Part shown: piece after piece, positions 182-64,000 of the stretch
Layout: every line of letters begins with the position of its first letter
How positions within the stretch are numbered: position 1 is the stretch's first letter
Notes under the pieces: model-generated
Told to the model about the DNA's origin: nothing
The model's database searches: none
The model's input: only the letters and a program-made list of their open reading frames with translations
Source: Streptomyces fildesensis
Lineage (GTDB): Bacteria; Actinomycetota; Actinomycetes; Streptomycetales; Streptomycetaceae
NCBI RefSeq assembly: GCF_016107395.1
Contig: NZ_JAAIKO010000017.1
Span: 62,001 to 126,000, forward strand
Length of the DNA stretch: 64,000 bases
Direction: 5' to 3'
Program-made: the position numbers and the translations under genes

Positions 182-243
182 GCCTGGATGTTACCAGCGA
201 GTAGCAACCCTGCCCAGGGCATCCGTGGGCCTGTCAGCAGAAA

Positions 244-257
244 TTACTGACCAGTAA
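244..257. promoter_or_regulatory. TTACTG-n2-CAGTAA palindrome, candidate operator
   Basis: A perfect 6-bp inverted repeat with a 2-bp spacer lies between the divergent thioesterase and P/Q-rich membrane-protein genes. The size and symmetry fit a TetR- or GntR-type operator. No regulator gene is adjacent, so the controlling protein is unknown. Confidence 0.4.
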
Positions 258-292
258 CGAGGGGCGGCGTGGAACCGGAAGCCCTCACCCCC

Positions 293-298
293 TAGTGT
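293..298 (+). promoter_or_regulatory. -10 element (TAGTGT) of a leaderless promoter
   Basis: TAGTGT fits TANNNT and ends eight bases before the ATG at 307. This places the start of transcription on or next to the start codon. No Shine-Dalgarno sequence precedes that ATG, which supports leaderless translation and the choice of 307 over the in-frame GTG at 295, which overlaps the -10. Confidence 0.45.
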
Positions 299-306
299 TT
301 CTGGCC

Positions 307-1389: not shown

Positions 1390-1468
1390 CCGCCGACGGC
1401 GGTGGGCCGGGCGGGCCCACCGCCGAAATCCGGTGGCACCGCGGCGGACGGGCCGCGATAGTCGCCGG

Positions 1469-3606: not shown

Positions 3607-3632
3607 CGCGTCATTGTCCCAAGCCGGACAGG

Positions 3633-4475: not shown

Positions 4476-4639
4476 GCCCAGGATCCTCTCGCCACGGGCC
4501 GCGGCCGATGCGCTCCCGGGAACAGGTGTGAGGAGCAGTGTGCCGTGTGCGTCACGCGACGAACAGACGACGGGCCGTGTCCCCCGCACCGGATGGTGCG
4601 GGGGACACGGATCGGGACGGCTCCGGCGACCGTTACCGG

Positions 4640-5812: not shown

Positions 5813-5951
5813 GGTTGGTTCGCTTCTTCCTCGGAATTCTGCGCGCGGCGGCACGACGGCATGGTCGGGTGGCTCGGCCGGGCGGCCTGGCCTGGTGACC
5901 GGATGACGTGGTGATCGCGCACGGGAACGCGGGGACCCCCTGGGCCGGACC

Positions 5952-5994
5952 GACCCTCCCCCTGCGGGGTCCGCCGGAATGTCCGGGGAGGGTC
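5952..5994 (-). terminator. Inverted repeat, probable transcription terminator
   Basis: GACCCTCCCC and GGGGAGGGTC are perfect complements separated by 23 bases. On the minus strand the stem starts inside the stop codon of the small 29-codon frame, a layout expected for a terminator ending a short transcript. It could also shield tuf3 from read-through. Confidence 0.4.
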
Positions 5995-6082
5995 AGCTTC
6001 GGGCGCCGTCGAGGAATGAAGCGAGGGCAGCCTCCAGCGCGTCCGCGACTGCGGACGTATCTGCGAAGGCATACCGGTTCAT
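5993..6082 (-). CDS. Possible 29-aa small protein
   Basis: The frame begins MNRYAFADTSAV and ends FLDGARS. It is alanine-rich and amphipathic in the middle, uses mostly G/C third positions, and its stop lies in the stem of a perfect inverted repeat. No convincing Shine-Dalgarno sequence was seen. It could be a real small gene with its own terminator or chance coding in GC-rich DNA. Function unknown. Confidence 0.25.
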   Translation of the reverse strand: MNRYAFADTSAVADALEAALASFLDGARS

Positions 6083-6130
6083 GGCGTTGATGATCCGTCA
6101 CCCGGCGGCCCGGCGTCGAACGGTTTTCCG

Positions 6131-6195
6131 CCTGCGGGGACGGTGCGGGAACCCTGCGGGGACGGTGCGGGACCGTGCGGGAACCCTGCGGGGAC
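6131..6195. repeat. Degenerate ~21-bp tandem repeat
   Basis: The unit cctgcggggacggtgcggga recurs about three times with small changes just upstream of the VTT-domain gene. It may affect its promoter or be a replication-slippage product. Confidence 0.6.
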
Positions 6196-6240
6196 CCCCG
6201 CTCGCTCCGCACGTTCACCGGTCTCGGTTAGGCTCCCTGG

Positions 6241-6948
6241 ATGCTCGACCGCCTCCCGACGTCCGACGGCCCCGCCGTACGGTGCACCCGTGCGCTGCTC
6301 TCGCCGTGGGCGCGGCTGGCCCTGCTGGTCGCGCTGCTGACGGGTGCGGCCACGGCCGTGCTGGTCTGGCAGCCGCAGCACCTGGTCATGGACGGCTGGC
6401 CCCAGCTGTCGGGCGGCGGCGCGGTGGTGCTCTTCGCGGCCGCGTACGGGGTGTGCGCGTTCGCCTTCGTGCCCCGCCCGCTGCTCAACGTCGCGGCCGG
6501 CGCGCTGTTCGGGACGCAGGCCGGGCTGCTCTCCTCACTGGCCGGCACCGTACTGGGCGCCGGGCTGTCCTTCTGTCTGGGCCGGGTGCTCGGCCGCGAC
6601 GCGCTCAGACCCCTGCTGCGCGGGCGCCTGATCACCTCGGTGGACCGGCAGTTGAGCCGGCACGGCTTCCGCAGCATGCTCGCGATCCGACTCTTCCCCG
6701 GTGTGCCCTTCGCCGCCGCCAACTACTCGGCGGCCGTCTCGCACATGCGCCTGGGCCCGTTCCTGCTCGCCACCGCGATCGGCAGTATCCCCAACACGGC
6801 CGCCTACGTCATAGCGGGCAGCCGCGCGTCGTCACCGACCTCACCGGCCTTCCTGCTGGCCATGGGGTTCATCGCGGTGACCGGCCTGGGTGCCGTCCTG
6901 GTCGCCGTCCGGGCCCGCCGTACCCAGAGCTCCAGGTCGGCCGCCTGA
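6241..6948 (+). CDS. TVP38/TMEM64 (VTT-domain, DedA-related) membrane protein
   Basis: 235 residues with about five or six hydrophobic segments. The VTT/SNARE-associated core is recognisable: FVPRPLLNVAAGALFG, then a Gly-rich helix (GTVLGAGLSFCLGRVLGR), an amphipathic stretch with RLFPGVPFAAANYSAA, and a following re-entrant-like helix. VTT proteins include DedA members that move undecaprenyl phosphate across the membrane and eukaryotic lipid scramblases. A lipid-carrier role is plausible but inferred. It is followed within 170 bp by a broken undecaprenyl-diphosphatase gene on the same strand, which also belongs to carrier-lipid recycling. Confidence 0.85.
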   Translation: MLDRLPTSDGPAVRCTRALLSPWARLALLVALLTGAATAVLVWQPQHLVMDGWPQLSGGGAVVLFAAAYGVCAFAFVPRPLLNVAAGALFGTQAGLLSSLAGTVLGAGLSFCLGRVLGRDALRPLLRGRLITSVDRQLSRHGFRSMLAIRLFPGVPFAAANYSAAVSHMRLGPFLLATAIGSIPNTAAYVIAGSRASSPTSPAFLLAMGFIAVTGLGAVLVAVRARRTQSSRSAA

Positions 6949-6974
6949 CCTTCCTGCACCGGCCGATGTCCAGC

Positions 6975-7105
6975 ACAGGCTGCCGTCCCAGCCGTTCCAG
7001 CTGTTCCGGCACCGGCTGACGCTTCAGCACGGACCGACGTTCCGGCACCGGCGAACGTGTCCCACGCGGACCGACGTCCCGGCACCGCTCTCCACCGCCC
7101 GACGA
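6975..7105. repeat. Degenerate repeats at the uppP truncation point
   Basis: The motif (a)cggaccgacgtyccggcacc appears twice and shorter pieces (ttccggcaccgg) appear again nearby. The repeats sit exactly where the 5' half of the uppP homologue should be. They may be remnants of the rearrangement that removed it. Confidence 0.5.
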
Positions 7106-7115
7106 CCTGATCGTC

Positions 7116-7622
7116 ATGGGCCTGGTCCTCGGCGTCACCGACCGCCTCGCCGCCCGCGGCGGCCCCGCCGACCAGGGCGGTCGGCACCGCGCCGCACCGC
7201 CCCGCAAGACGCTGCGCGACCTCACCACCCGCGACGGCCTGGTCTACGGCCTCTGCCAGGCGATGGCCCTGATCCCGGGCGTCTCCCGCTCCGGCGCCAC
7301 CATCAGCGGCGGCCTCTTCCTCGGCTACACCCGCGAGGCCGCGGCCCGGTACTCCTTCCTGCTCGCCATCCCCGCGGTCCTGGCGTCCGGGGTCTTCGAG
7401 CTCAAGGACGTCGGTGGTGACTCACATCTCTCCTGGGGACCGACGATCCTCGCCACCGTCATCGCGTTCGGCGTCGGATACGCCGTCATCGCCTGGTTCA
7501 TGCGGTACATCTCCACCAAGAGCTTCATGCCCTTCGTGATCTACCGCGTCGTGCTCGGCGTCGTGCTCTTCGCACTGGTGGGAGCCGGTGTGCTGGACGT
7601 CAAGGCCGCCGCGTTCGAGTAA
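7116..7622 (+). pseudogene. uppP: 5'-truncated undecaprenyl-diphosphatase (UppP/BacA) remnant
   Basis: The frame encodes only the C-terminal ~165 residues of an UppP-type enzyme, which is normally about 270-280 residues. UppP dephosphorylates undecaprenyl diphosphate so the carrier can be reused in wall synthesis. The second conserved block is present (ALIPGVSRSGATISGGL with the catalytic Ser/Arg segment), plus the last transmembrane helices. The first block, normally carrying the Glu-rich E-x3-E and TEFLP-like motif, is missing. Homology begins abruptly near position 7101 (DLIVMGLVLGV) after a run of short repeats. No Shine-Dalgarno sequence precedes the ATG. An inactive remnant is most likely; a functional full copy is expected elsewhere in the genome. 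Confidence 0.75.
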
Positions 7623-7766
7623 CCGGATCCGTGAGGTCCGCGCCGCACGGGCCCCGGCCCGGGCCACCGGCCGCGGGGCGCCGCTCCGACCGGGCGACCT
7701 TCCGCAGCGTGACCATTCGCACACGCAATTCCTGCTGGATTGGTCGGAGCGGCCACCGGCGCACCG

Positions 7767-7772
7767 TAACCT
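7767..7772 (+). promoter_or_regulatory. -10 element (TAACCT) of a leaderless promoter
   Basis: TAACCT lies seven bases before the ATG of the 52-aa gene and no ribosome-binding site is present. The paralogue at 11.69 kb has the same arrangement. Confidence 0.5.
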
Positions 7773-7779
7773 GATCGGT

Positions 7780-7938
7780 ATGCATGCAACACCTGTGGCC
7801 GAGGCGAACGACGCCCTCCGCGCCTACCTTCACGCGCACGGTTCCCGTGCCTGGACCCCGGCCGAGCTCGCCGAGCTCGAACGCCTGCGGTCCGCGTTCC
7901 TGGCAGCGCAGCGCGCCCATTACCGGAAAGCCGCGTAG
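7780..7938 (+). CDS. 52-aa small protein, paralogue A
   Basis: The protein (MHATPVAEANDALRAYLHAH...) is charged, helical and Ala/Arg/Glu-rich with a central WTPAEL motif. That motif resembles the opening of a DNA-binding or coiled-coil helix pair, but no known domain can be named. A paralogue of identical length lies at 11690-11848; by my ungapped count 31 of 52 residues match, centred on AHGxRxWTPAELxELxRLRxA. Transcription is probably leaderless. A strong hairpin follows 60 bp after the stop, so the gene is a self-contained unit. Similar short proteins are widespread in streptomycetes as hypotheticals. Confidence 0.75.
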   Translation: MHATPVAEANDALRAYLHAHGSRAWTPAELAELERLRSAFLAAQRAHYRKAA

Positions 7939-7997
7939 CGACTGACCCTCCTGCCGGGCCGCCGTCCACCGGCCGCCCCGCACCCGACGACCGTCCC

Positions 7998-8028
7998 GCC
8001 GCCCACACCGCCAGCCGGTGTGGGCGGC
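7998..8028 (+). terminator. Rho-independent-type terminator hairpin
   Basis: A perfect 13-bp stem (GCCGCCCACACCG with CGGTGTGGGCGGC) closes a 5-base loop and is followed by TTCTGTCT. It ends the 52-aa gene transcript. Confidence 0.75.
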
Positions 8029-8050
8029 TTCTGTCTGCGGGGCCTACGCG

Positions 8051-8152
8051 ATGGGACAGCCCGCGGGCGTCAACACACCCCACATCGACAACCTCTGGTA
8101 CACCGGCGATCCCACCTCCGTCCTCGGCGGACAGGACGGAGAGGAGAAATAG
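8051..8152 (+). CDS. Possible 33-aa small protein
   Basis: The frame reads MGQPAGVNTPHIDNLWYTGD... and ends GGQDGEEK. Its mixed, non-repetitive composition, with Trp, Tyr and acidic residues at the C-terminus, looks more like protein than a chance frame. No clear Shine-Dalgarno sequence is seen. It may be a small gene or the tail of a deleted one. Function unknown. Confidence 0.35.
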   Translation: MGQPAGVNTPHIDNLWYTGDPTSVLGGQDGEEK

Positions 8153-8316
8153 GACGGAAGGCGCACCCGGCGCCGGCCCCTTTGACGGGCCCCGCAGATC
8201 CGGCACATCCTTGACGGGTGCCGCTCGTTGAGCTGGCCATGGGAGGTCTGGACCACGAGGACCGCAGGACCTTCTCCGATCACGAGCCTCCGTACGCCGG
8301 AAGTTGGGGAGTCCAC

Positions 8317-8784
8317 ATGACCGACGAGAAGAGCGGCCCGGGCCCCCGGGTCCTGGCGGACGACGCGCTCTCCGCGCTGCTCGCCACGCATCAGTTCGGG
8401 GTCCTGGCCACCAACAAGCGCAGCGGGCACCCGCATCTGACGACCATGCTCTACCACTGGGATCCCGAGTCCCAGATCGTCCGCTTCTCGACCACCGCCG
8501 ACCGCGTCAAGGTGCGCCAGCTCAGGAACGATTCACGGGCCGCGCTGCACGTCTCCAGCGAGGACCACTGGTCGTTCGCCGTCGCGGAGGGCGAGGCCGA
8601 GGTCTCGGAGATCACGACCGAGGCGGGCGATGCCGTCGGGCGCGAGCTGCTCGCCATGCTGCCGGCCTCGGCCCGTCCGGCGGACGAGGGGCCGTTCCTC
8701 GCACAGCTCGTAGCGGAGCAGCGGCTCGTCATCCGGCTCAAGGTCGACCGGCTCTACGGCACCGCTCTCGACGTGACCGGATAG
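8317..8784 (+). CDS. Pyridoxamine-5'-phosphate-oxidase-family (PPOX split-barrel) protein
   Basis: 155 residues of FMN/F420-binding split-barrel type. Typical segments are FGVLATNKRSGHPHLTTMLY near residue 30, then FSTTADRVKVRQLRNDSRAALHV, where the Arg/Lys contact flavin phosphate, and a VAEGEAEVSE strand. In actinobacteria such proteins are usually F420H2-dependent reductases or heme-degradation-like enzymes; the cofactor cannot be told from sequence alone. The ATG is preceded by GGGGAG. It stands alone, convergent with the pentapeptide gene. Confidence 0.85.
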   Translation: MTDEKSGPGPRVLADDALSALLATHQFGVLATNKRSGHPHLTTMLYHWDPESQIVRFSTTADRVKVRQLRNDSRAALHVSSEDHWSFAVAEGEAEVSEITTEAGDAVGRELLAMLPASARPADEGPFLAQLVAEQRLVIRLKVDRLYGTALDVTG

Positions 8785-8828
8785 GACGGGCCTGAGCCTC
8801 GTCCGAGGCAGGCAGTGCGGCGTGGGGC

Positions 8829-9698
8829 CTACCAGCGTTCCGGGTGGCTGAGCGCGGGCGGCAGCTTCGTTCCGGCGTCCCCGCGCGCCGCGTCCAGTTG
8901 GGACTGGATGAGGAAGATGGCCCCGGTGAGGTCGGCGCCGCGCAGGTCCGCGTCCCGGAAGTCGGCGCCGATCACGTCGGCCGTCCGCAGATCGGCGCCC
9001 GAGAGGTCGGCCCCGATGAGATACGCCCCGCGCAGGTTGGCGCCCCTCAGGTCGGCGCCCTTGAGCCGGGCGCCGATGAGGTCGGCTCCTCTGCGGTCCT
9101 TCTTCTTGCCCCGGACCTCGGCACGCACGAGTTCGCTGGCCCGCAGCAGCAGGGCGTTCACGTCGCTGCGGTGGGCCGGAACGTCCAGCTCCACGAGGAG
9201 CTCGGGGTTGTACCGGGTGAGGCGTTCGGTCTCCTCCAGCGCGGCCCCGAGCTCCGCGTGCAGCGAGCGGGCCGGCCGCAGCGTCAGCGCCTCGGTCAGG
9301 TACCAGAGCAGCTCATGCAGATCCCGCATGACGGGGAAGACCTGGAACATCTGCTTCGCCGTGCGCGGTGCCTGCCGCCAGTCCTGGCCACCGAAGGTGA
9401 CCTGCGAGACCTTCTGCCCGGCGCCGAAGCAGTCGTAGACGGTGCAGCCCCGGAAGCCCTTGTCCCTGAGGCGGGTGTGCATGCCGCAGCGGAAGTCCTG
9501 CTGCAGGTTGGGGCAGGCCTGGCCGGCGTTCTTGTTGATCGCGAAGTCGACGGAGGCGGAGAACGCCGGCACGACGCAGCACAGCGCGAAGCAGCTCCCG
9601 CAGTCGGCGCGCAGAGCGGCCGGCCCGCCACCGGGGCCGGCCTCCGGCCCCGAACCGGGCTCCGGCTCGGCCTGTGTACGTTCGCGGTTCTCAGACAA
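8829..9698 (-). CDS. Pentapeptide-repeat protein with cysteine-rich N-terminal domain
   Basis: 289 residues. After an acidic/Pro-rich start comes a cysteine-rich block of about 70 residues (CGSCFALCC, ACPNLQQ, RCGMH, GCTVYDCFG) with eight cysteines. It resembles the metal-binding CxxCxxCC-type module of the YkgJ family. The C-terminal ~70 residues are pentapeptide repeats of the A(D/N)LxG type (for example GADLRGANLRGAYLIGADL), which form a right-handed beta-helix. The role is unknown; the repeat may bind a protein partner and the head a metal ion. The start appears to be TTG with AGGAG ten bases upstream. Confidence 0.85.
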   Translation of the reverse strand: MSENRERTQAEPEPGSGPEAGPGGGPAALRADCGSCFALCCVVPAFSASVDFAINKNAGQACPNLQQDFRCGMHTRLRDKGFRGCTVYDCFGAGQKVSQVTFGGQDWRQAPRTAKQMFQVFPVMRDLHELLWYLTEALTLRPARSLHAELGAALEETERLTRYNPELLVELDVPAHRSDVNALLLRASELVRAEVRGKKKDRRGADLIGARLKGADLRGANLRGAYLIGADLSGADLRTADVIGADFRDADLRGADLTGAIFLIQSQLDAARGDAGTKLPPALSHPERW

Positions 9699-9853
9699 CG
9701 TGCTCGGTCTCCTGGTACGCAGCGGCGGTGCCGACCGCGGCCGCCGGCACGGTGGCTGCGTCTCCGCATCGCTGAACGACTGGGTCCGGCACTCTCACCT
9801 CGCACATTATCCGACCTCGTCCCGCACAGCCGCCTCCACCGAGAACGCTCGGA

Positions 9854-10675
9854 TCACTTCGCCCGGAGGCCGTAGGCGACCTCGTACGCGTACTGCCACG
9901 TCCTGGGACCGGTGAGCCCGTCGGCCGGGCCCAGGACGGAGAGGTAGTGCTGCTGCAGCGCCTTGACCTTGATCAGGTCCAGCTGGGACATGGTGCGGCT
10001 GGGGCCGACCTTGTACGGCGGCCCCCAGTCGCCGCGCTGCAGCCACGTCTGCAGCTGCAGGGCGTAGTCGCTGCTCGCCCCCAGTACGAAGTACTGCCGC
10101 CCGGGAAACGCGGGCGCTCCCGGTGTCGACGGTGGTGTCCAGTGGTACGAGGCGACGGCCTTGCCGCCGCGGTGATCGCTGGGGTCGGCGGTGGGCGGGC
10201 ACACGCCGTCCGGGAAACGCGGGGCGAAGTACCCGACGACGCGGGACGAACGGCGGGCGGTGGTGTGCGACCAGACACCGTTGCCCTGCCCGTTGTCGGC
10301 GGCACCCTCCTTGATCGAGTTACCGCCCTTGGTGCGGATGTTGACGGCGTCGAAGCCCGTCACGATCTCGGTGTGGGCGCCGTTGCCGAGGTTCACCCAG
10401 GCACCGATGCTCGGATACTCGCTCCACTGGCCGCGCTGCTGCGCCCAGGCGGTGAAGGCCGAGACGTTGTCGACCTTGGGCACGATCGCGTCGAGCCCCA
10501 TGTCGTGGTACATGTCCCATTCCCACATGACGCACCAGGAGTACCCGTCCTCGCCGAACTCCACCCCGAATTCGGTGTGGTTGTCCCAGCCGTCGCGACT
10601 GTTCCAACCTTCGTAGGTCCGCTCCGGGACCGCCATGACGTGGTCCATCAGCCGATTCCACTGCGCTGCTGCCAT
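9854..10675 (-). CDS. CHAP-like amidase with C-terminal peptidoglycan-binding-like domain
   Basis: 273 residues. The N-terminal half has a CHAP-type pattern: a cysteine in SWCVMWEWDMY near residue 47 and a histidine in GAHTEIVTGFD near 101, the expected Cys/His pair of NlpC/P60-related amidases. The C-terminal ~75 residues (YALQLQTWLQRGDWG, then LDLIKVKALQQHY and GPRTW) resemble a PG_binding_1 fold. No signal peptide or membrane helix is visible, as in phage endolysins or effectors delivered by contractile injection systems. The ATG at 10675 has GGAGCGAG upstream, which excludes the longer frame. No phage genes are adjacent. Confidence 0.75.
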   Translation of the reverse strand: MAAAQWNRLMDHVMAVPERTYEGWNSRDGWDNHTEFGVEFGEDGYSWCVMWEWDMYHDMGLDAIVPKVDNVSAFTAWAQQRGQWSEYPSIGAWVNLGNGAHTEIVTGFDAVNIRTKGGNSIKEGAADNGQGNGVWSHTTARRSSRVVGYFAPRFPDGVCPPTADPSDHRGGKAVASYHWTPPSTPGAPAFPGRQYFVLGASSDYALQLQTWLQRGDWGPPYKVGPSRTMSQLDLIKVKALQQHYLSVLGPADGLTGPRTWQYAYEVAYGLRAK

Positions 10676-10916
10676 CTCGCTCCTACGAACTACGAGCCGA
10701 ACATACGTACTTGTGCGCGACAGAAATTCGAACGGTGCACCGGATCCGGCGATCACCACTCCACGAATTAACGCGCCACCCACAGATCCTGCCCAGAAGG
10801 TCCCGCTGCACAATCCCAGATCGACGGCATCGATTTCCCGCCCTCCGGCGAATATCGTTCCCTCGCAGCCGCCGTGGTGTTAACTGGAATGTTGGGCCAG
10901 GGGTCGGTTGCAGGTT

Positions 10917-11633
10917 CTAGGCAGAGACGTTCCAGGTCGAGACGATCGAACTCAGATCGGTCAGGGAACCGATGCGCCAGTCGGCCACCCGGACCGTCTC
11001 CGGATCGTCCGCCCACAGATGTCCCCACGGCCCGCGCCGCAGATGCGCGACCCGCAGTCCGGCGTGCTTCGCCGGGAAGACGTCGTTGGCCGGATGGTCC
11101 CCGACATAGACGATCTCGTGCGGCTCGGCCTGCGCCAACTCGACGACCCGGGCGAAGAATTCCGGGCTGGGCTTGGCGACACCCCACTCCTCGGACGTCG
11201 CGATCACGTCGGCAGGCAGGTCCAGACCGCGCAACAGCTCACCGGCGCACGCCGATTGGTTACCCGCGACCAGCACCCGGATGCCGAGCTTCCGCAACCC
11301 GCCCAGCGCCGGACGCACATCCGGGTAGAGATCGGATTCGTCGAGGAACTCGCCGCGGCCAGCGGTCCGGCGGGCAGCGTGGGCGGCCGGGAGATCGAGC
11401 CCGGGACGAATGAGCCGCAACGCGTCCGCGTTGTCGCGGCCTTGGGACACAACGGCGCCGACCAGGGCGGACATCGTATGCCGCGGAATTCCGAGCCAGT
11501 CGGCCCATGACTCCCAGTACCGGGTATCACTGATGAGAGTCTCGCCGATATCGAACACCATTGCCTCGATCACCTTGTCAGCGTACGAGGGTTCCGGCCG
11601 GGCCCGGAATGCCGCGCCGTTCCGAGGTCGCAT
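10917..11633 (-). CDS. HAD-superfamily hydrolase
   Basis: 238 residues. Motif I is VFDIGETLI with the nucleophile Asp followed by Glu in a DxGET variant common in actinobacterial HAD-IA phosphatases. Motif II appears as VLVAGNQS, Lys of motif III in WGVAKPSPEFF, and motif IV in VYVGDHPANDV. The likely activity is hydrolysis of a small phosphate ester; the substrate is unknown. The ATG at 11633 has AGGAA six bases upstream; a GTG at 11573 nearer the domain is the alternative. It is divergent from the second 52-aa gene, 56 bp away. Confidence 0.85.
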   Translation of the reverse strand: MRPRNGAAFRARPEPSYADKVIEAMVFDIGETLISDTRYWESWADWLGIPRHTMSALVGAVVSQGRDNADALRLIRPGLDLPAAHAARRTAGRGEFLDESDLYPDVRPALGGLRKLGIRVLVAGNQSACAGELLRGLDLPADVIATSEEWGVAKPSPEFFARVVELAQAEPHEIVYVGDHPANDVFPAKHAGLRVAHLRRGPWGHLWADDPETVRVADWRIGSLTDLSSIVSTWNVSA

Positions 11634-11654
11634 ATGCCGTTCCTGGCAGCTGGA

Positions 11655-11683
11655 TTCCGATCGCCGCTGAGGACCCATAGTCT
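11655..11683 (+). promoter_or_regulatory. Leaderless promoter of 52-aa paralogue B
   Basis: TTCCGA and TAGTCT are separated by 17 bp; the -10 ends six bases before the ATG and no Shine-Dalgarno sequence is present. Confidence 0.45.
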
Positions 11684-11689
11684 TATCGC

Positions 11690-11848
11690 ATGCGCGGCAC
11701 ACTCTCGACCCATGCGAATGATCGACTGCGCGCCTATGTCCAGGCGCACGGCGACCGATCCTGGACACCCGCCGAACTCACGGAACTCGCCCGCCTCCGG
11801 GACGCCTATCTGACGGCGCGCCGCGCCGAACGCGCGAACGCCGCGTAA
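11690..11848 (+). CDS. 52-aa small protein, paralogue B
   Basis: The frame encodes MRGTLSTHANDRLRAYVQAH... with the AHGDRSWTPAELTELARLR core. It is the same length as the protein at 7780-7938 and about 60% identical. Both are preceded by a -10 element abutting the ATG. Conservation of length, core motif and leaderless layout argues strongly that both are real genes. A short helical protein that may dimerise or bind a partner is a guess; no function is known. Confidence 0.75.
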   Translation: MRGTLSTHANDRLRAYVQAHGDRSWTPAELTELARLRDAYLTARRAERANAA

Positions 11849-12082
11849 CCAGCGCTCCCGGCCATCCATTTCCCGTCCATCCGCCCAGCCCATCCATCTG
11901 AACCGTCGGACCGTCGGACCCATGGAAAGGCCACGGTCCACCCTGCCTTGATCCGGTCTGTCTTGGTGCACCCTGTCTTGGGTCCACCCTGTCCTGGTCC
12001 GCCCCCACTACTCCCCCGGGCGTAGATCGGGTGCCTTCGGCCGGACGACGACACCCGGACGGCCGCTCGGGATTCTTGGGGT

Positions 12083-12457
12083 ATGGAAACCCATCGCGGA
12101 CCCGTCAAGATCACCCTCGCCCTGCTGGTCCTGATGGCGGCGTCGATTCCCGTACAGATAGCAGCGGGCGCGGACTACCCGGTCGTGCCGCCCGGCGCCG
12201 TCATTCCGGTGGTCGCGGCCGGGCTGCTGGCCTGGCGTCCGCGCCTCTGGACCGCCGCGATCGCGACGGCCGTCGGCCTGTTCATCGGCATCGGATCGTT
12301 CACGACGCCGAACACGGGCGATCACCTCGGGTCGGGCAACGGCCTCCTCATCGCCTCGACGGTGGTGCAGCTCGCCGCTCTGCTGGGCATCGTCATAGCC
12401 GGCGCCGTCTCCGTACTGCGGATGAGCCGCCGCACGGAGTCCACGGTCCGCTTCTGA
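12083..12457 (+). CDS. Small four-helix membrane protein
   Basis: 124 residues with hydrophobic segments at about 9-28, 37-50, 57-75 and 89-112, short loops and a basic C-terminus (RMSRRTEST). No family motif is recognised. The layout fits a small integral membrane protein of unknown role. It is followed 93 bp later by another membrane protein on the same strand, possibly co-transcribed. The preceding 230 bp contain short direct repeats but no other gene. Confidence 0.65.
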   Translation: METHRGPVKITLALLVLMAASIPVQIAAGADYPVVPPGAVIPVVAAGLLAWRPRLWTAAIATAVGLFIGIGSFTTPNTGDHLGSGNGLLIASTVVQLAALLGIVIAGAVSVLRMSRRTESTVRF

Positions 12458-12550
12458 CATCGCGCCCTGTCTCCCGGCTCGCCCTGTCTCCCAGCTCACC
12501 CGGCCTCCGGCCCACCCGGCCCCCTCCCACGTTCCGCCAGGAGTTGTCCC

Positions 12551-13393
12551 ATGCACGCTCGAGCGGCAGTGCCCCAGCCCGACCCTGCGACGCGCACGAA
12601 CCCGCCGGGAGCGACCGGAGCGCCGCCCGCGATGCGGCGGGGAGAAGGGTGGCGGGTGGCGAGGAGGAGCGAACGGCTCTGTTACGTGACCGGCGCCGTT
12701 CTCATCGTCTCCGGGCTGGTGCACCTGGGGGTGTTCGCCGTCGACGGGGGTCCGTGGGAGGGGCCGGTCTCCTGGCGGAAGCCCTTCACCTTCGGGCTCT
12801 CCTTCGGTCTGACGCTGATCGCGATCACCTGCGTGACGTCGTATCTGCGGATGGCCGCACGCACCCGCGCCGTGCTGCTCACCCTGTTCGCGGCCGACTG
12901 CGTACTGGAGGTCGGCGGCATCACGCTCCAGGCGTGGCGCGGCGTGCCGTCGCACTTCAACATGAAGTCACCTTTCAACACCTCGGTGTCCATGTCCCTC
13001 GCCGTCGGCGGCGCGCTGCTCGTCGTCATCCTCTCCGCGTTCGCGGTCGTCTCGTTCACCCGACGCCCCGAGGGGCCGACCGGTATGCCGCTCGCGCTGC
13101 GCACCGGTTTCGCCATCCTGCTCATCGGACTCCTGTCGGGCGCGGCGATGATCGCGCGCGGCGTCGTCCTGACCCGCACCGGCCACCAGGCAGCCGGCTA
13201 CCGCAGCACCGCGTCCGTCAAGCCGCTGCACGGCGTCAGCCTGCACGCCATCCTGGTTCTCCCGGCGCTGGCCTGGCTGTTGTCGCTGACTTCCTGGAGT
13301 CCGACCGCCCGGTACCGGGCGGTCGTCACGGCAGCGGGCTGCTACGCCGCGGCCGTCGCCGGCGCGCTGGTGTGGGCGGTCCTGAAGTACTGA
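12551..13393 (+). CDS. Polytopic membrane protein
   Basis: 280 residues. After a ~45-residue basic/Pro-rich cytoplasmic lead come about seven hydrophobic segments (for example LCYVTGAVLIVSGLVHLGVF and SMSLAVGGALLVVILSAFAV). A WRKPFTFGLSFGLTL segment and HFNMKSPFNTSV loop are distinctive, with several His residues near membrane ends, but I cannot assign a family. The ATG has CAGGAG upstream. Homologues are usually labelled hypothetical membrane protein in streptomycetes. Confidence 0.7.
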   Translation: MHARAAVPQPDPATRTNPPGATGAPPAMRRGEGWRVARRSERLCYVTGAVLIVSGLVHLGVFAVDGGPWEGPVSWRKPFTFGLSFGLTLIAITCVTSYLRMAARTRAVLLTLFAADCVLEVGGITLQAWRGVPSHFNMKSPFNTSVSMSLAVGGALLVVILSAFAVVSFTRRPEGPTGMPLALRTGFAILLIGLLSGAAMIARGVVLTRTGHQAAGYRSTASVKPLHGVSLHAILVLPALAWLLSLTSWSPTARYRAVVTAAGCYAAAVAGALVWAVLKY

Positions 13394-13441
13394 CGGGAGG
13401 GCGGAACACGAAAGGGTGGAGAGCGGACGTCGCCGCGCGCC

Positions 13442-14425
13442 CTACGGCACCAGCACCCACCGGCCCCGTACTCCGCCCTCCGACATCCGCGCGTGCGCCT
13501 CGGCCGCGCGCTCCAGCGGCAGCACCCCCGCGACGCGCGGGGTGAGCGCGCCCGTCTCCGCGAGCCGGGCCAGTTCGGCGAGCCGCGCGCCGTCCGCCCG
13601 CACCCATACGTCGCGGACATTGATTCCGCGCAGAGGCACCGGCGCGGCGCCCGCGTTGACGGAGGCGAACGCGCCGCCGCCACGCACCGCGTCCAGGGCA
13701 TCGGCCCGCAGCATCGCCGCGTCCAGTGCGGCGTCGGCCCCGCCCGGTACCAACTCCCTGACCCGGTCGGCCAGTTCTGGTCCCCGTTCGGCGAAGTACG
13801 CGGCCCCCAGCGCCCGGACCGAGAATTCGTCCGCCGCACCCGCGACCGCGACGACCCGCAGCCCCCGGAGTGCCGCCAACTCGACGGCGTACCCGCCCAG
13901 GGCCCCGGCCGCCCCGGTGACCAGCAGTGTTCCGCCGGATGTCAGACCGAGCGCGCCGAGCACGTCGAGCGCCAGATCCGCGGTCAGTGCGTTGAGCGGC
14001 AGGGTCGCCGCGGCCTCGGGCGGAATCCCGGCGGGAGCGGAGGCGACGGCGTCCGCGTCGAGGACGACGAACTCCGCCTGGGCGCCGGTGCGGACGTCCA
14101 GCCGGTCCTGGAGTCCGATGACCCGGTCGCCGGGCGCGAACGCCGTCACGCCGGGGCCCACGGCGTCGACCGTCCCGGCAACGTCCCAGCCGAGGCCGAA
14201 GGTCGGCCGGGCACCGACGAGCCCGGCGGCGACCGGCGCCCCGGCCGACACGAGGAGATCGACGGGATTGACGGCGGCGGCCTCGACCGCGATCCGCAGC
14301 TGCCCGGCGCCGACCTTTGGCACCGGCGCGTCGACGACCTCAAGCGTCCCGTGAGAGCCACCGGAACCGCCGGAACCATCGGAGCCGTCGGAGCCGTCGG
14401 TAAATCGGGCGATCAGTGCGCGCAC
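13442..14425 (-). CDS. Zinc-independent MDR-family NADP-dependent oxidoreductase
   Basis: 327 residues of the quinone-oxidoreductase branch of medium-chain dehydrogenases. The N-terminal GroES-like part has AAAVNPVDLLVSAG and GWDVAGTVDAVG. The nucleotide-binding domain has LLVTGAAGALGGYAVELA, an NADPH motif. Catalytic zinc ligands are absent. The reaction is probably NADPH-dependent reduction of a quinone or enone. Near the N-terminus is an unusual Gly/Ser/Asp repeat (DGSDGSDGSGGSGGSHG) encoded by a 9-bp tandem repeat between strands 1 and 2, probably a tolerated loop expansion. It is divergent from an HxlR regulator, which probably controls it. Confidence 0.88.
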   Translation of the reverse strand: MRALIARFTDGSDGSDGSGGSGGSHGTLEVVDAPVPKVGAGQLRIAVEAAAVNPVDLLVSAGAPVAAGLVGARPTFGLGWDVAGTVDAVGPGVTAFAPGDRVIGLQDRLDVRTGAQAEFVVLDADAVASAPAGIPPEAAATLPLNALTADLALDVLGALGLTSGGTLLVTGAAGALGGYAVELAALRGLRVVAVAGAADEFSVRALGAAYFAERGPELADRVRELVPGGADAALDAAMLRADALDAVRGGGAFASVNAGAAPVPLRGINVRDVWVRADGARLAELARLAETGALTPRVAGVLPLERAAEAHARMSEGGVRGRWVLVP

Positions 14426-58233: not shown

Positions 58234-59853
58234 TCAGGTGACCGGGACGGGCGGGGCCGGTTCCACCCGGAGGTGCGCCGTCCCGGAGCGCACGGCCCAG
58301 CCGAACACGGCGAGCGCGACGGCACCGACCACGATCGTGTCGTACGGCGCGGGCAGCCGGCCCGAGCCGCCGAAGGTGCCCAGCCAGGACAGCAACGTCA
58401 GCGCGGCCAGCTGGCAGACCAGCCAGGCGCCGTCCCGCAGCTCCTCGCGCACCGGCCGCCCGGCGGCGTCGCGGCGCAGCAGCAGGAACAGCGGCACACC
58501 GGCGAGAACCAGCGGCAGCGCGAGGCGCAGATCGTGCCAGCCCGACCAGTAGACGAATTCGGTGGCCACCACGAAGCTGATCGGCGCGATCCAGCGCACC
58601 CCGGGTACCTGGCCGTCCTTGCGGGTCACCCCCTGCTCCCTGTCCCGCGCCCGGAACACGGCGACGGCGACCGCGGACGCCGCGTAGATGAGCAGATACA
58701 TGTCGCCCATCACGCTGACGATGTCCTGCCAGCCGCCGAACGGCAGCATGAACAGGACGATCACGACGAGGTTGAGCAGCAGCGCCCGGTGGGCCATGCC
58801 GGAGCGGGCGTCGATCCGCATGAAGAAGCGCGGCAGCAGGCCGTTCTTGGCCAGGGCGTAGGTGTGCCGGGCGTCGATCGCGACCCCGACGTAGGCCGAG
58901 CCGCCGGGCGAGACCACCGCGTCGGCGTAGAGCAGGGTGGCCAGCCAGTGCAGGTTGAGCACCAGGGCGAGCTGCCCGAACGGTGACTCGAAGTTCACGC
59001 CCTGCCATCCGTGGCCGAGCAGCGAGTCCGGCACCGTGAAGAGGAAGGCGAGCTGCAGTCCCAGGTAGACCAGCACGGCCAGCCCGATGCCGGTGAGTAC
59101 CGCGCCCGGCACATTGCGCCGGGGGTTGCGGGCCTCGCCGGAGAAGTCGAGCGGCGCCTGGAAGCCGTTGACGGAGTACACGATGCCGCCGCTGGCGAGC
59201 GCGGTCAGACAGGCCGCGTAGCCGTACGGTGCGAAGCCGCCGTGGTCGGTGAGCCGCCCGGAGTGCGTGCCGGAGAGGAACAGCGCCACCACGGTGACGA
59301 CGGGCACGACGACCTTGAACAGCGACACCAGGTTGTTCAGCCGCGCGAAGGTGCGTACCGCGAACCAGTTGAGCGCGGTCAGCAGGATGCTCAGTCCCGA
59401 GGCCACGGCCAGGCCGGACGCGGTCAGCCGGCCGTTGTCGTAGAGGCCGGGGAGGTAGTGCGCGGCGTACTGCATGATCGCGCTGATCTCCGCCGCCGTG
59501 CCGCCGACCGACAGCAGGACCGACCAGCCGATCACGGTGCCCACCAGCCGGCCGCTCGCGTAGAGCGGCCAGCGCACGGTTCCGCCGCCCTCGGGGCGGG
59601 TGGCGCCGAGCTCCACCATCACCAGCGCCACCAGGCCGCACAGCACGCCCGCCGCGACCCAGGACAGCAACGAGGCGGGCCCTGCGGTCTGCGCGGCGAA
59701 CATGGCCGCGAACAGCCAGCCGGAGCCGAGGATGTTGGAGAACCCGATCGCCGCCAGGCTCCAGAACCCGAGCTCCTTGCGGAGCCGGCGTTCCTCGCTC
59801 AGTACCGTGGGGGCGTCCGGAGCACGCTGCGGCTCGCTCTGCGGCACGTGCAC
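58234..59853 (-). CDS. APC-superfamily amino-acid permease
   Basis: 539 residues. The first helix has LAAIGFSNILGSGWLFAAM, typical of APC amino-acid transporters, and 12 helices follow with a conserved FQAPLDFSGEARNPRRN loop. It imports an amino acid with a proton or cation. The GTG start has a strong GAGGAGGTG three bases ahead. It lies upstream of the lectin gene and 99 bp downstream of the NHLP exporter genes; functional linkage to either is unclear. Confidence 0.9.
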   Translation of the reverse strand: MHVPQSEPQRAPDAPTVLSEERRLRKELGFWSLAAIGFSNILGSGWLFAAMFAAQTAGPASLLSWVAAGVLCGLVALVMVELGATRPEGGGTVRWPLYASGRLVGTVIGWSVLLSVGGTAAEISAIMQYAAHYLPGLYDNGRLTASGLAVASGLSILLTALNWFAVRTFARLNNLVSLFKVVVPVVTVVALFLSGTHSGRLTDHGGFAPYGYAACLTALASGGIVYSVNGFQAPLDFSGEARNPRRNVPGAVLTGIGLAVLVYLGLQLAFLFTVPDSLLGHGWQGVNFESPFGQLALVLNLHWLATLLYADAVVSPGGSAYVGVAIDARHTYALAKNGLLPRFFMRIDARSGMAHRALLLNLVVIVLFMLPFGGWQDIVSVMGDMYLLIYAASAVAVAVFRARDREQGVTRKDGQVPGVRWIAPISFVVATEFVYWSGWHDLRLALPLVLAGVPLFLLLRRDAAGRPVREELRDGAWLVCQLAALTLLSWLGTFGGSGRLPAPYDTIVVGAVALAVFGWAVRSGTAHLRVEPAPPVPVT

Positions 59854-59952: not shown

Positions 59953-62868
59953 TCAGCGCATCTGACGGCGCACCAGCTCATGGAACATGCCGCCGGTGTC
60001 GGCGAGGAGTTCCGCGGGTGGACCCTGCTGGAGGACCCGGCCCTCCGACATGACGATCACGCGGTCGGCGTCCATGACGGTGGACAGCCGGTGGGCGATG
60101 ACGACGCGTGTCGAGCGCAGTTTGCGGGTGCTCTCGGTCACGACGCGCTGGGTCTCGTTGTCGAGGGCGCTGGTGGCTTCGTCGAAGAACAGGATGCGCG
60201 GGTGGCGGATCAGGGCCTGGGCGATCATCAGGCGCTGCCGCTGGCCGCCGGAGACGGTGCCGCCGCCGTCGGAGAGGACGGTGTGCATGCCCATCGGCAT
60301 GGCCTTGATGTCCTCGGTCAGGCCCGCCATCGCGGCCGCCTCCCAGGCCTCTTCCAGGGAGAACGTCTCGGAACCGCAGATGCAGTCCAGGATCGAGCCG
60401 GTGAACGGCTGCGCGTTCTGCAGGACGACCCCGCACTGGCGGCGCACGGCCGCCGGGTCGAGGGCCGTCAGGTCCTGACCGTCGTAGAGCACGCTGCCGG
60501 AGACCGGCCGGTCGAAGCCGATGAGCAGCCGGAGCAGCGTCGACTTGCCGCAGCCGCTGGACCCGACGATCGCGACGAACTCGCCCGGCAGGATCCGGAA
60601 CGACACGTTGTCGAGCACCAGTGGCGCGTCGTCGGCGTACCGGAACGACAGCTGCTTGACCTCGATCTCGCCGGACAGGACGCCCGGCTGTATGGTGCCG
60701 CCGCCGACCTCGGGCACCTCGTCGAGCAGCGGTTTGATCTGCTCGAACAGCGGCAGGACGGAGACGGCGGAGATGAGTGCGCCGGTCAGCTGGGTCACCG
60801 ATGTCAGCAGCATGGTCACTGCGGTGTTGAAGGTGAGGAAGCTGCTGGCCGACAGGGTCCCGCGGGCCGGACCTGCGAGCAGCATGAACATGACGAGGGT
60901 GCAGAGCGGCAGATAGACCGCGTTGACGACCGTGATCAGGTTCTTGATCCGGCCCACGCGCTGCTGCAGCTCGCGGCTGCGGGCGAACTCGCGGGCCCAG
61001 GACGCGTAGGCGAAGCTCTCCGCCGCGGCGACACGCAGTTTGGGCAGTCCGCGCAGCGTCTGGAACGCCTGGTTGTTGAGCTTGTTGCCGAGCGCGATCA
61101 GCCGGCGCTGCCACCGCAGTTGCCACAGCCCCAGGCCGAGGAACACCGCGCCGATCACGGTGAGCATCGCCATCGCCAGCAGGGCCAGCATGGGGCTGTA
61201 CCAGAGCAGCAGAGCGAGGTTCACGGCGCCGACGGTGCCCGCCTGCACGGCCACCGAGCTGATGCCGGACAGCACGCGGCGGATGGCACTGATGCCCATG
61301 GCGGCGCTGGCCAGCTCTCCGGTGGAGCGCCCGGCGAAGAACTTCGTCGGCAGGCGCAGCAGCCGGTCCCAGACGGCCGGCTGGAGTGTGGACTCGATGC
61401 GCCCTTCCATGCGCAGGATGGAGATGTTCTCCAGCAGCATGAAGGCGGCCGAGACGATGGTGGTGGCGACGATCGCCAGCGAGGTCTGGACGATGAGGCT
61501 GTTCTCGGCGTTCGGTACGTAGACGCCGAGCACCTGTCCCGTCGCGATGGGCACCAGCGCGCCCAGTCCGACCGCGACCAGACCGCCCAGGATCAGGTTG
61601 CGCAGGTCAGCCCGGGTGCCGCGCAGACTGAAGCGGAGCAGCCGCCAGGCGGCTATGGGCTGGTCGGGCAGCGGACGGTAGAACATGACGGCGCGGGGCT
61701 GGAACGCGGCCGCGGCCGCGCCCCCGCCCGTACTCCCGATGCGCGTCCGCTCGCCGGTGACCGGATCCACCGCCTCGTATCTGCCGCGCCGCCACAGCAG
61801 CGCGACCGGGGCGCCCGTACCGGCCCGGTGGCCCAGCAGGGGGCCGGAGTTCTCCCGCCACCAGCGGCCGTCGAGTCGGACCGTGCGGGTGCGGAAGCCC
61901 GAGCTCACCGCGATGCGCTCGACCGGGCTCGACCGTCCGTTCGCCGAGCCGCCCTCCACGGGCGCCGAGACGGTGATCCCGGCCGCGTCGGCGACTCTGC
62001 GGCAGGCGGCGAGTGTGGCGTCGTCGGTGCCCTCGGCCGGGTGGGACGGGGCCCTGCCTCCCGGCCTGTCGATGGAGGCCAGCAGCGCCTGGTCCGCCTG
62101 CGCGCGCACCGTCCGGCCGGCCTCGATGCCGGCCGCTGTCCGGTTCTCATGGGCGCGCTCGATGCGTTCGATCCAGCGGTCCAGCGCGAACAGCAGCCGG
62201 GACTGCTGATTGACCACCCGCTGCCACATCGCACCGTCGATGAGCAGGTCGGCGGCCGCCTCGCTGCTGAACGCGGCGCCGTACTGCACGCTGCCGGGGG
62301 CCACCGGCATCCACAGGATGTTGTCGTCGGCCGCTTCGTACTCCGCGGCCGGCTCCGCCGTTCCCGGTCCATGGCCCGGCTGACCGTCGTGGGGCGCCTC
62401 GAACAGGACGCGCAGGCTGCGTCCGACCCCGCGGGCGAACGCGTCCTCCAGCGGGCTGAGGGGCACTTCGTAGCCGCTGTACGCCTGCTGGTCCGGGTAT
62501 CCGGCGTACCCGCCTCCGCCGTACCCGGGCCCGAACAGTTCCCGCAGCTGGATCCGGCGCAGTTCGCACCCTTGCAGGGGCCGTCCGACGAGGGTGTGGC
62601 GCGGGCCTTCCGCCGGTCCGAGCACCAGGGTTCCCGTTTCGAGCCGGCCGAGGAAGTGCCAGTGCCCCTGGTTTCCGGCGTCGACCGCGAACAGGTCCAT
62701 CGCCCCGCCCACGACGAGCCACAGCACATGGGGCCCCTCGAGGCTCATGCTGCGGGCGCCGGCGCAGTCGACGGGCTGTCCCAGACCGCCGAGGGCACCG
62801 ACCACCACATCGCCGGGCACGGCGCCCGGCACGGCGTCGGCGATCACGGGGTTCTGGACGGATGTCAT
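59953..62868 (-). CDS. NHLP-type bacteriocin ABC exporter, permease/ATPase protein
   Basis: 971 residues. The N-terminal ~430 residues include a cNMP-like/adaptor region with ADDNILWMPVAPGSVQYG; no C39 peptidase is present. Helices follow at about 430-720. The ATPase has Walker A GSSGCGKST near 770, signature VSGGQRQR and Walker B ILFFDEATSAL. This matches the second exporter subunit of NHLM/NHLP bacteriocin systems (TIGR03797-type), which work with a peptidase-type partner to cleave and export leader peptides. Its start overlaps the partner stop (ATGA). A precursor peptide was not found inside the window. Confidence 0.9.
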   Translation of the reverse strand: MTSVQNPVIADAVPGAVPGDVVVGALGGLGQPVDCAGARSMSLEGPHVLWLVVGGAMDLFAVDAGNQGHWHFLGRLETGTLVLGPAEGPRHTLVGRPLQGCELRRIQLRELFGPGYGGGGYAGYPDQQAYSGYEVPLSPLEDAFARGVGRSLRVLFEAPHDGQPGHGPGTAEPAAEYEAADDNILWMPVAPGSVQYGAAFSSEAAADLLIDGAMWQRVVNQQSRLLFALDRWIERIERAHENRTAAGIEAGRTVRAQADQALLASIDRPGGRAPSHPAEGTDDATLAACRRVADAAGITVSAPVEGGSANGRSSPVERIAVSSGFRTRTVRLDGRWWRENSGPLLGHRAGTGAPVALLWRRGRYEAVDPVTGERTRIGSTGGGAAAAAFQPRAVMFYRPLPDQPIAAWRLLRFSLRGTRADLRNLILGGLVAVGLGALVPIATGQVLGVYVPNAENSLIVQTSLAIVATTIVSAAFMLLENISILRMEGRIESTLQPAVWDRLLRLPTKFFAGRSTGELASAAMGISAIRRVLSGISSVAVQAGTVGAVNLALLLWYSPMLALLAMAMLTVIGAVFLGLGLWQLRWQRRLIALGNKLNNQAFQTLRGLPKLRVAAAESFAYASWAREFARSRELQQRVGRIKNLITVVNAVYLPLCTLVMFMLLAGPARGTLSASSFLTFNTAVTMLLTSVTQLTGALISAVSVLPLFEQIKPLLDEVPEVGGGTIQPGVLSGEIEVKQLSFRYADDAPLVLDNVSFRILPGEFVAIVGSSGCGKSTLLRLLIGFDRPVSGSVLYDGQDLTALDPAAVRRQCGVVLQNAQPFTGSILDCICGSETFSLEEAWEAAAMAGLTEDIKAMPMGMHTVLSDGGGTVSGGQRQRLMIAQALIRHPRILFFDEATSALDNETQRVVTESTRKLRSTRVVIAHRLSTVMDADRVIVMSEGRVLQQGPPAELLADTGGMFHELVRRQMR

Positions 62869-64000
62869 CTCAGTGCTCCCTGACGAGCTCGGCGTACGGC
62901 CCCCCGGCCGCGATCAGGTCCTCGTGCCGACCGCGCTCCACGACCGTGCCGTGGTCGAGCACGACGATCTCGTCGCTGTCGCGCACCGTGCTCAGCCGGT
63001 GCGCGATCACCACGCAGGCACAGCCCCGCCGCCGCAGATTGTCGATGATCACCTGCTCGGTCTCGGCGTCCAGGGCGCTGGTCACCTCGTCGAGGACCAG
63101 GACGCTGGGGCGGCGGACCAGGGCCCGGGCGATCTCCAGCCGCTGCCGCTGGCCTCCGGAGAAGTTGCGGCCGTCCTGCTCGACCCGGCTGTGGATGCCG
63201 CCGGGACGCCGGGCGACCGTGTCGTGGATGGCGGCGTCCTTGAGCGCGGCGATGACGTCGTCGTCCGGTATCGACGGATCCCACAGCGCGACGTTGTCCC
63301 GGACGGTGCCCTCGAAGAGGAAGACGTCCTGATCGACGAAGGAGACCGAGGCGGACAGCGCGCTGCGGGAGATCTCGTCGAGCCGCTGCCCGTCGATGCG
63401 GATCGCGCCCTCCCACGGGTTGTAGAGACCCGAGATCAGCCGGGACACCGTGGACTTGCCGCTGCCGGAGCCGCCGACCAGCGCGACCTGCCGGCCGGGG
63501 CCGACCGACAGCGAGAAGTCGGTGAGCAGCGGTTTGTCGAGCGGGCTGTAGCCGAAGGTGACGTTCTCCAGTGTCACGTGCCCCTTGAGCCTGCGGGTGC
63601 TCGCGGCCGGCTCGCTGCGGGAGTACAGGCCGTCCACCGGGAAGCTCTCGACGTCCTTGAGCCGGGCCACGTCGGCCGCGAAGTCCTGGATCCGGCCGGC
63701 CACCCCGTTGAGCCGGGTGACCGGTGCGGTGAAGCTGGTCACCAGCGCCTGGAAGGCGACGAGCAGACCGATGGAGATGTGGCCCTCCACCGCCCGCAGC
63801 CCGCCGATCCACAGGATCAGTGCGCTGTTGAGCGCCGCGAGGGTGGGCGCGACGACGGCGAGTACCGCGCTGGGCACGCCGAGCCGCTGCTGCCCGTCCA
63901 GGGTCGTGGCGTGCTGGCCGGCCCAGCGGCGGAAGTAGCCGTTCTCGGCGCCGGTCGCCTTCATCGTCTCGATGAGCTGGAGCCCGCCGTACGAGGTGTT
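62865..64000 (-). CDS. NHLP-type bacteriocin ABC exporter, peptidase-type subunit (5' part outside window)
   Basis: The last ~378 residues of a larger protein are seen. They hold membrane segments (ALNSALILWIGGLRAVEGH and GLLVAFQALVTSF), then an ATPase with GGSGSGKST, FSGGQRQR and VLVLDEVTSAL. The missing N-terminus should carry a C39 double-glycine peptidase if it is the TIGR03796-type partner. It cuts off NHLP leaders during export. Translationally coupled to the downstream subunit. Start lies beyond 64000. Confidence 0.88.
   Translation of the reverse strand, partial: HLVRRAPAHRDDEGDRRRERLLPPLGRPARHDPGRAAAARRAQRGTRRRRAHPRGAQQRTDPVDRRAAGGGGPHLHRSARRLPGAGDQLHRTGHPAQRGGRPDPGLRGRRGPAQGRRELPGGRPVLPQRAGREHPQAQGARDTGERHLRLQPARQTAAHRLLAVGRPRPAGRAGRRLRQRQVHGVPADLGSLQPVGGRDPHRRAAARRDLPQRAVRLGLLRRSGRLPLRGHRPGQRRAVGSVDTGRRRHRRAQGRRHPRHGRPASRRHPQPGRAGRPQLLRRPAAAAGDRPGPGPPPQRPGPRRGDQRPGRRDRAGDHRQSAAAGLCLRGDRAPAEHGARQRRDRRARPRHGRGARSARGPDRGRGAVRRARQGALR

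Follow-up and report, generated by a model that had tools for sequence, protein, structure and literature searches.

NHLM-Type Exporters and the Locus of Streptomyces fildesensis

Genes for NHLM-type transporters have been taken as signposts of modified peptides. The exporter families TIGR03794, TIGR03796, and TIGR03797 are described together with NHLP precursors and with TOMM or LanM enzymes (Haft et al., 2010; PMC2887384), and bacteriocin clusters with HlyD and C39 components have been described in cyanobacteria (Wang et al., 2011; PMC3140520). The present analysis concerns an exporter of this type in Streptomyces fildesensis, encoded by ATP-binding cassette (ABC) genes at the right end of a 64,000-nucleotide stretch of DNA (contig C85:62001-126000), referred to here as the window. 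The original prediction had placed this exporter in a cluster for a ribosomally synthesized and post-translationally modified peptide (RiPP), with the type of modification left open. Instead, the exporter belongs to a group with a cysteine-free precursor and no adjoining maturase. The locus is probably a self-contained four-gene cassette, not a RiPP cluster, and would export an unmodified hydrophobic, anionic peptide.

The contig ends at 147335, which leaves 21.3 kb readable beyond the right edge of the window, and coordinates above 64000 continue those of the window. Since the cassette lies entirely on the minus strand, the right of the window is upstream. In gene order, the cassette comprises:

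66108-66326, minus strand: precursor peptide, 72 aa, with a double-glycine leader
65152-65958, minus strand: HlyD of the NHLM type, 268 aa (TIGR03794)
62870-65155 (contig C85:124870-127155), minus strand: ABC1, NHLM-type peptidase/permease/ATPase, 761 aa (TIGR03796, Peptidase_C39)
59953-62868, minus strand: ABC2, NHLM-type permease/ATPase without a peptidase, 971 aa (TIGR03797, PF00664, PF00005)

Both ABC subunits are real, as had been predicted, and score above the curated NCBIfam cut-offs. ABC2 matches the NHLM_micro_ABC2 model TIGR03797 over residues 282-970 (890 bits against a cut-off of 709), with about 280 aa N-terminal to the matched part. This model matches 83 places in the genome, and the gene at 59953-62868 alone passes the cut-off. 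ABC1, only the C-terminal part of which falls inside the window (62870-64000), matches the NHLM_micro_ABC1 model TIGR03796 (1011 bits against 853) and Pfam Peptidase_C39 (116 bits), with the model scores taken on the longer open frame 62870-65980. Its start is likely a GTG that overlaps the HlyD stop codon, and a single base separates ABC1 from ABC2. HlyD scores 175 bits against 156 for TIGR03794. With ABC2, a C39-bearing ABC1, and HlyD, the locus is a member of the NHLM exporter systems.

Across nearly its full length, ABC1 aligns with the bacteriocin transporter 4ry2 (PCAT1) and with ComA 8hf7 (residues 56-759). Double-glycine pheromones are exported by ComA-type transporters, and the latter alignment speaks for a reading in which the peptide is a signal (pheromone) for cell-cell communication. 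The C39 domain matches 6mpz from end to end (E 9e-42) and, in the numbering of that alignment, keeps Gln21, Cys27, His101, and Asp117. According to the C39 study, Gln is a candidate for the oxyanion role, Cys, His, and Asp form the triad, and the leader is contacted at positions -4, -7, and -12 (PMC6363468).

The predicted extension of the cluster to the right held, in that both the HlyD partner and the double-glycine precursor were found there, the latter 2.1 kb past the window edge and directly before HlyD in gene order. The expectation of a RiPP cluster with an NHLP-type precursor and modifying enzymes is not supported: by the models the precursor is of another type, and no modifying enzyme adjoins it. 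The peptide is encoded by an open frame with the double glycine at residues 24-25. Its 47-aa core contains no Cys, Trp, Tyr, Phe, Lys, Arg, His, or Met, and has a grand average of hydropathy (GRAVY) of +1.17. It does not match the NHLP model TIGR03793 at E 0.001, and neither TIGR03793 nor the Nif11-related TIGR03798 (N11P) is among the 10 families matched by 23 members of the peptide family at E 1. By these models, the precursor is not of the NHLP or N11P type.

Conservation of the Cassette

The four-gene unit is common to many Streptomyces and their close relatives. When named genomes were scanned with an HlyD alignment, at least 492 stretches proved to encode a relative, and the best 80, from Streptomyces, Streptacidiphilus, Streptantibioticus, Kitasatospora, and Actinacidiphila, were kept and examined. 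An intact precursor gene lies 58-331 nt ahead of the HlyD start in 78 of these 80 named loci (77 by gene call, because the HlyD of L144 was missed by the gene caller). The exceptions are L136, in which the contig ends 89 bases before HlyD, and L186, in which the precursor copy, upstream of the HlyD at 9001, carries a frameshift inside the core. The full order precursor-HlyD-ABC1-ABC2 is found on one strand in 74 of the 78 loci by gene call, and the other four owe their status to gene calls (L144 and L162) or contig ends (L172 and L211).

The genes on either side of these 78 loci make up 66 different family pairs, with six loci lacking a scored downstream neighbor. No recurrent fifth gene was found, and no other family occurs within three genes in more than nine of the 78 loci. 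This bears on three possible roles of the peptide. An unmodified class II-like bacteriocin would have the double-glycine leader and C39 exporter of that class, but these loci offer no recurrent candidate for an immunity gene, which could be encoded elsewhere. A signal, for its part, lacks a recurrent adjoining gene as a candidate receptor, while a surface-active or coat-like peptide needs no immunity gene.

In a sample of the genus, the peptide occurs in 22 of 35 genomes, that of S. fildesensis included. These hold 28 peptide loci, counting the one described here: HlyD is next in 21, one lies at a contig end (L066), and six are lone copies. A peptide profile finds members in roughly half of the Streptomycetaceae genomes sampled (125 of 249, in 9 of 17 genera). 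When applied to a sample of the class, it finds them in 22 of 296 genomes, all among the 28 of the same family, whereas the other 268 yield no match. Cassette-type HlyD (more than 430 bits) is present in exactly the same 22 genomes, and 11 further genomes carry a more distant HlyD (at most 211 bits). Such a distribution, with 125 of 249 genomes inside the family and 0 of 268 outside it, favors a surface-active peptide of hyphal growth or sporulation.

Lone peptide genes without an adjoining HlyD are found at L052, L053, L054, L055, L056, L057, and L126-L131; one of these, L128, contains a core cysteine. The three genus-sample genomes with lone copies also carry the cassette, as do the class-sample genomes with two peptide matches. 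In PLSDB there is a plasmid match, itself without annotation.

Leader and Core of the Peptide

Composition was assessed on 106 peptides (78 named and 28 from the genus, with two loci counted twice) split at the double glycine only. This recount is preferred over an earlier one of 70 of the 78 named peptides, in which the leader pattern had preselected hydrophobic residues at -4, -7, and -12 and dropped eight peptides. All 106 leaders have V or I at -4, L at -7, and I or L at -12. Taken together, the double glycine, the hydrophobic residues at these three positions, and the Cys, His, and Asp kept in the C39 domain are the features of a double-glycine peptide exported by a C39 transporter.

The cores are strongly hydrophobic, anionic, and nearly devoid of basic residues. 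Cysteine occurs in none of the 106, lysine in one, and arginine in 13, and the net charge is negative in 103. The named cores (n = 78; 39-62 residues long) have a negative charge in 75 and zero charge in three, with Cys in 0, Trp in 0, Tyr in 1, Phe in 4, Lys in 1, Arg in 11, and His in 19. All 28 genus cores are negatively charged, with Cys, Lys, and His in none and Arg in two. In the 70-core count, the composition was 21% Gly, 21% Val, 13% Thr, 11.5% Leu, and 11% Ala; a general absence of Trp and Tyr, taken from the same count, failed in the genus set. Mean GRAVY is +1.0 (71 cores). The mean periodicity of hydrophobicity is helix-like, with a peak near 108 degrees and a mean z of 2.1 at 100 degrees.

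Weak matches to bacteriocin models were obtained with PF04369 Lactococcin (3 of 23 members, best E 0.0056), PF10439 (2 of 23, best E 0.12), and TIGR01847 (7 of 23, best E 0.026). Together with the leader and exporter, these matches favor a class II-like bacteriocin. Many class II bacteriocins are cationic, however, whereas the present cores are anionic. An antibacterial role seems rather unlikely. The cores also vary in length and sequence between lineages, which speaks against a signal. Anionic, hydrophobic cores favor a surface-active peptide, for which chaplins and SapB serve as the comparison, but the helix-like periodicity is modest and no chaplin model was matched in the scans of 23 members. 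A search of PDB sequences with the peptide profile gave two matches, both at E 0.3, and PADLOC gave one weak match in one of 42 members.

Maturases and the Exporter Tree

A search for maturases covered 109 loci: that of S. fildesensis, L064, 27 from the genus sample, and the 80 named ones (L065/L132 and L075/L160 having been fetched twice, and six being lone-peptide loci). The YcaO and LanM queries, both taken from L064, matched only L064 itself, and a radical S-adenosylmethionine (SAM) motif was found at the S. fildesensis locus only, 10 kb away. No modifying enzyme adjoins the cassette here, where the neighbors are a permease, a LuxR-type regulator, and a major facilitator superfamily (MFS) transporter. 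At this locus, then, no modifying enzyme is encoded with the precursor as in a RiPP cluster. This absence, which the YcaO and LanM queries and the radical SAM motif extend to the relatives searched, leaves the predicted RiPP cluster unsupported.

Besides the cassette, the genome encodes a second exporter of NHLM-like type, in L064 (G000:C449:125001-145000; 3-13566). With 614 bits, the ABC2 of this exporter stays under the cut-off of 709. The exporter is accompanied by LanM (304.2 bits, cut-off 304), YcaO (277 bits, cut-off 219), a P450-like gene, a 53-aa double-glycine precursor with one cysteine, and a nearby polyketide synthase-like gene (P450 and polyketide synthase by eye). Judging from its predicted genes, L064 is a LanM plus YcaO hybrid RiPP cluster, and provides a useful contrast to the cassette.

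Of the 65 proteins in an ABC1 tree, 59 come from cassettes, and a branch with support 95/96 sets these apart from the other six, L064 and L243-L247. Among the five loci outside the cassette group with the nearest HlyD, four (L243-L246) have YcaO nearby, with no YcaO match at L247. Of the farther L248-L252, which lie outside the tree, only L252 has a YcaO match, and a weak one. L243-L246, the nearest exporter relatives found, combine YcaO, a second gene of about 500 aa, and HlyD-ABC1-ABC2, and small nitrile-hydratase-like proteins are visible by eye in L245 and L246. The root of the tree is unsure because the L064 branch is very long. The simplest reading, in which we infer the direction of change, would be that an exporter once linked to a maturase shed that enzyme and adopted a cysteine-free peptide.

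These data also bear on an alternative in which the product is a RiPP whose maturase acts in trans from elsewhere in the genome. It draws on the described association of NHLM exporters with RiPP maturases (PMC2887384), on the presence of L064 in the same genome, and on the YcaO genes near four of five outside relatives. Weak matches to lantibiotic models point the same way (PF04604 in 6 of 23 members, best E 0.05; TIGR03898 in 3 of 23, best E 0.017). Such a product is nevertheless quite improbable, given that none of the 106 cores contains cysteine, that no searched locus except L064 has an adjacent YcaO or LanM, and that the cassette exporters group apart from those linked to YcaO.

Hairpin and Upstream Blocks

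Two non-coding features accompany the precursor gene:

65995-66029, minus strand: hairpin with a 15 bp stem and a 5-nt loop, between precursor and HlyD
66569-66588, minus strand: upstream block A, a conserved sequence upstream of the precursor

The hairpin in the gap between precursor and HlyD is a strong one: the best local fold of this gap beats 20 shuffles with z below -2 in 72 regions out of 78, and the mean z is -5.6. The types of base pair in these hairpins are not used as proof of covariation, because the stems were selected as the best ones.

Block A (TGTGAAGAAG, at most one mismatch) occurs in 69 of 106 upstream regions, block B (CGTGCTTTGATC-like) in 79, and both in 53, all counted without a shuffled control. 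With looser matching, an A-B pair is found in 89 regions, with a spacing of 107-108 in 64 and of 95-97 in 13, and the two spacing classes are about one helical turn apart. The block counts are not independent because the regions come from related genomes. The 20-base form of block A seen here has a single occurrence in the S. fildesensis genome when up to two mismatches are allowed. To the eye, block B is degenerate at this locus and is not claimed there. At the lone copies, block A is found in L052, L053, L056, and L057, and block B in L126, L127, L129, and L130.

By eye, block B resembles an extended -10 promoter (TGnTTnnAT), and for this reason the blocks are read as a promoter and a regulator site, and an earlier reading as a leader RNA was dropped. 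At the gathering threshold, Rfam has no match in the stretches L009/L010 or in five relatives. The conserved blocks suggest regulation, which would suit a signal; against this, the family of the LuxR-type regulator beside the S. fildesensis cassette occurs in only 5 of 29 clustered loci. With the missing receptor candidate and the variable cores, a signal is unlikely.

Proposed Function of the Cassette

On the pattern of the established C39, leader, and exporter families, the C39 peptidase of ABC1 would recognize the leader through its hydrophobic residues at -4, -7, and -12 and cleave behind the double glycine. Export of the unmodified core, about 40-60 residues long, would then fall to the pair of ABC1 and ABC2, together with HlyD on the outer side. 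The hairpin after the precursor gene may allow the precursor to be made in excess over the exporter. Because the core is strongly hydrophobic, anionic, cysteine-free, and nearly without basic residues, it would most likely act at an interface (the cell surface, the membrane, or the air-water boundary) rather than as a cationic antibiotic. We favor such a surface-active or coat-like role, alongside chaplins and SapB, tentatively; a function of some other kind is about as doubtful as an antibacterial one. A broader and more speculative proposal is that such peptides, unmodified, hydrophobic, and anionic, might form a widespread class in Streptomycetaceae, secreted by way of a RiPP exporter that has been re-dedicated. 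They might act on the surface of hyphae or spores as a third kind of surface peptide beside chaplins and SapB, with the dispersed extra copies feeding the same exporter.

Several points weigh against an unmodified, interface-active product. The maturase search used one YcaO query, one LanM query, and one radical SAM motif, with other maturase families judged from the clustering of neighbors only, and a maturase may be encoded elsewhere even where none adjoins the precursor; the lantibiotic matches given above add to this. The genus cores are not free of aromatic residues (Trp in 3, Tyr in 4, and Phe in 7 of 28), and about 20% of core residues are Ser or Thr. The core of S. fildesensis itself has a z of 1.06 at 100 degrees and of 2.1 at 170 degrees. 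The ratio of nonsynonymous to synonymous substitution rates (dN/dS) is modest, with a median of 0.51 over 100 pairs of the whole gene and of 0.60 over 106 pairs of the core. An AlphaFold model of the precursor (42 rows) is poor, with a predicted local distance difference test score (pLDDT) of 60 and a predicted template modeling score (pTM) of 0.20. Finally, the 80 named loci were chosen through HlyD as top scorers and are not a blind sample.

No published account of the cassette or of its peptide family was found in the titles, abstract openings, and passages searched, a body that leaves out most subscription journals, and five leader strings are printed in no searched paper. One article reports that a Streptomyces cluster with Peptidase_C39 contains a "type A2 lantipeptide" (PMC13047742), which might or might not belong to the cassette peptide family. 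If the proposed reading is true, the label of RiPP cluster is misleading for such loci, and a widespread secreted peptide of much-studied bacteria still awaits a function.

Neighboring Genes

The genes flanking the cassette include:

58234-59853, left of ABC2: amino-acid permease (Pfam AA_permease_2, 143 bits)
66771-69593, minus strand: LuxR-type regulator, 940 aa, a possible local regulator

The permease had been predicted to the left of the exporter, and was confirmed. The gene after the LuxR-type regulator encodes the MFS transporter, and these two genes separate the cassette from all candidate modifying enzymes. Between 5 and 19 kb to the right of the precursor lie a protein without a Pfam match, a cytochrome P450, DUF1152, radical SAM, ATP-grasp, and FemAB-like proteins, a geranyl diphosphate methyltransferase, and an encapsulin-cargo-type terpene cyclase. 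The candidates among them (the P450, radical SAM, and ATP-grasp proteins and the methyltransferase) sit 7-17 kb from the precursor. Across the 29 clustered loci, S. fildesensis included, the P450 family occurs in two and the radical SAM family in S. fildesensis only; most of these stretches span about 10 kb on each side, and that of the near relative L058 stops at the P450.

A small cluster at 75000-82546 (L009/L010) has, in a row, DUF1152, a HemN-like radical SAM protein (265 bits, under the cut-off of 380), two ATP-grasp-like proteins, an MFS-like protein, and a FemAB-like protein. One of the two ATP-grasp-like genes was scanned; the first of them and the MFS-like gene, the second of its kind here, were called by eye. 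Near the contig end, 82640-84884 (L010:4640-6884) encodes a geranyl diphosphate 2-C-methyltransferase (519 bits, cut-off 400) and a family 2 encapsulin cargo-type terpene cyclase (417 bits, cut-off 400). This pair is presumably a 2-methylisoborneol locus.

Comparison With Known Systems

The cassette resembles the NHLM/NHLP cassettes in having the same three exporter families above their cut-offs and cleavage of the double-glycine type (PMC2887384). Unlike those, its precursor is not nitrile-hydratase-like by model, its core is cysteine-free, and no YcaO or LanM adjoins it. The cyanobacterial clusters likewise place HlyD and a C39 ABC protein near double-glycine precursors, with LanM named for only part of them (PMC3140520). 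They belong to another phylum, however, and their precursors are NHLP, N11P, and others, with multiple precursors to a cluster in several groups.

With the AMS/PCAT proteins and their LahT-type C39 peptidase (6mpz), the cassette shares the peptidase by sequence, the catalytic residues, and a leader that is hydrophobic at -4, -7, and -12 (PMC6363468). It differs from them in pairing two different ABC genes with HlyD. PCAT1, by comparison, works as a homodimer. The nearest exporter relatives, the YcaO-linked NHLM clusters of Actinomycetes (L243-L246), share the HlyD-ABC1-ABC2 order with the cassette, but differ from it in their YcaO and second gene and, at L245 and L246, in their nitrile-hydratase-like small proteins.

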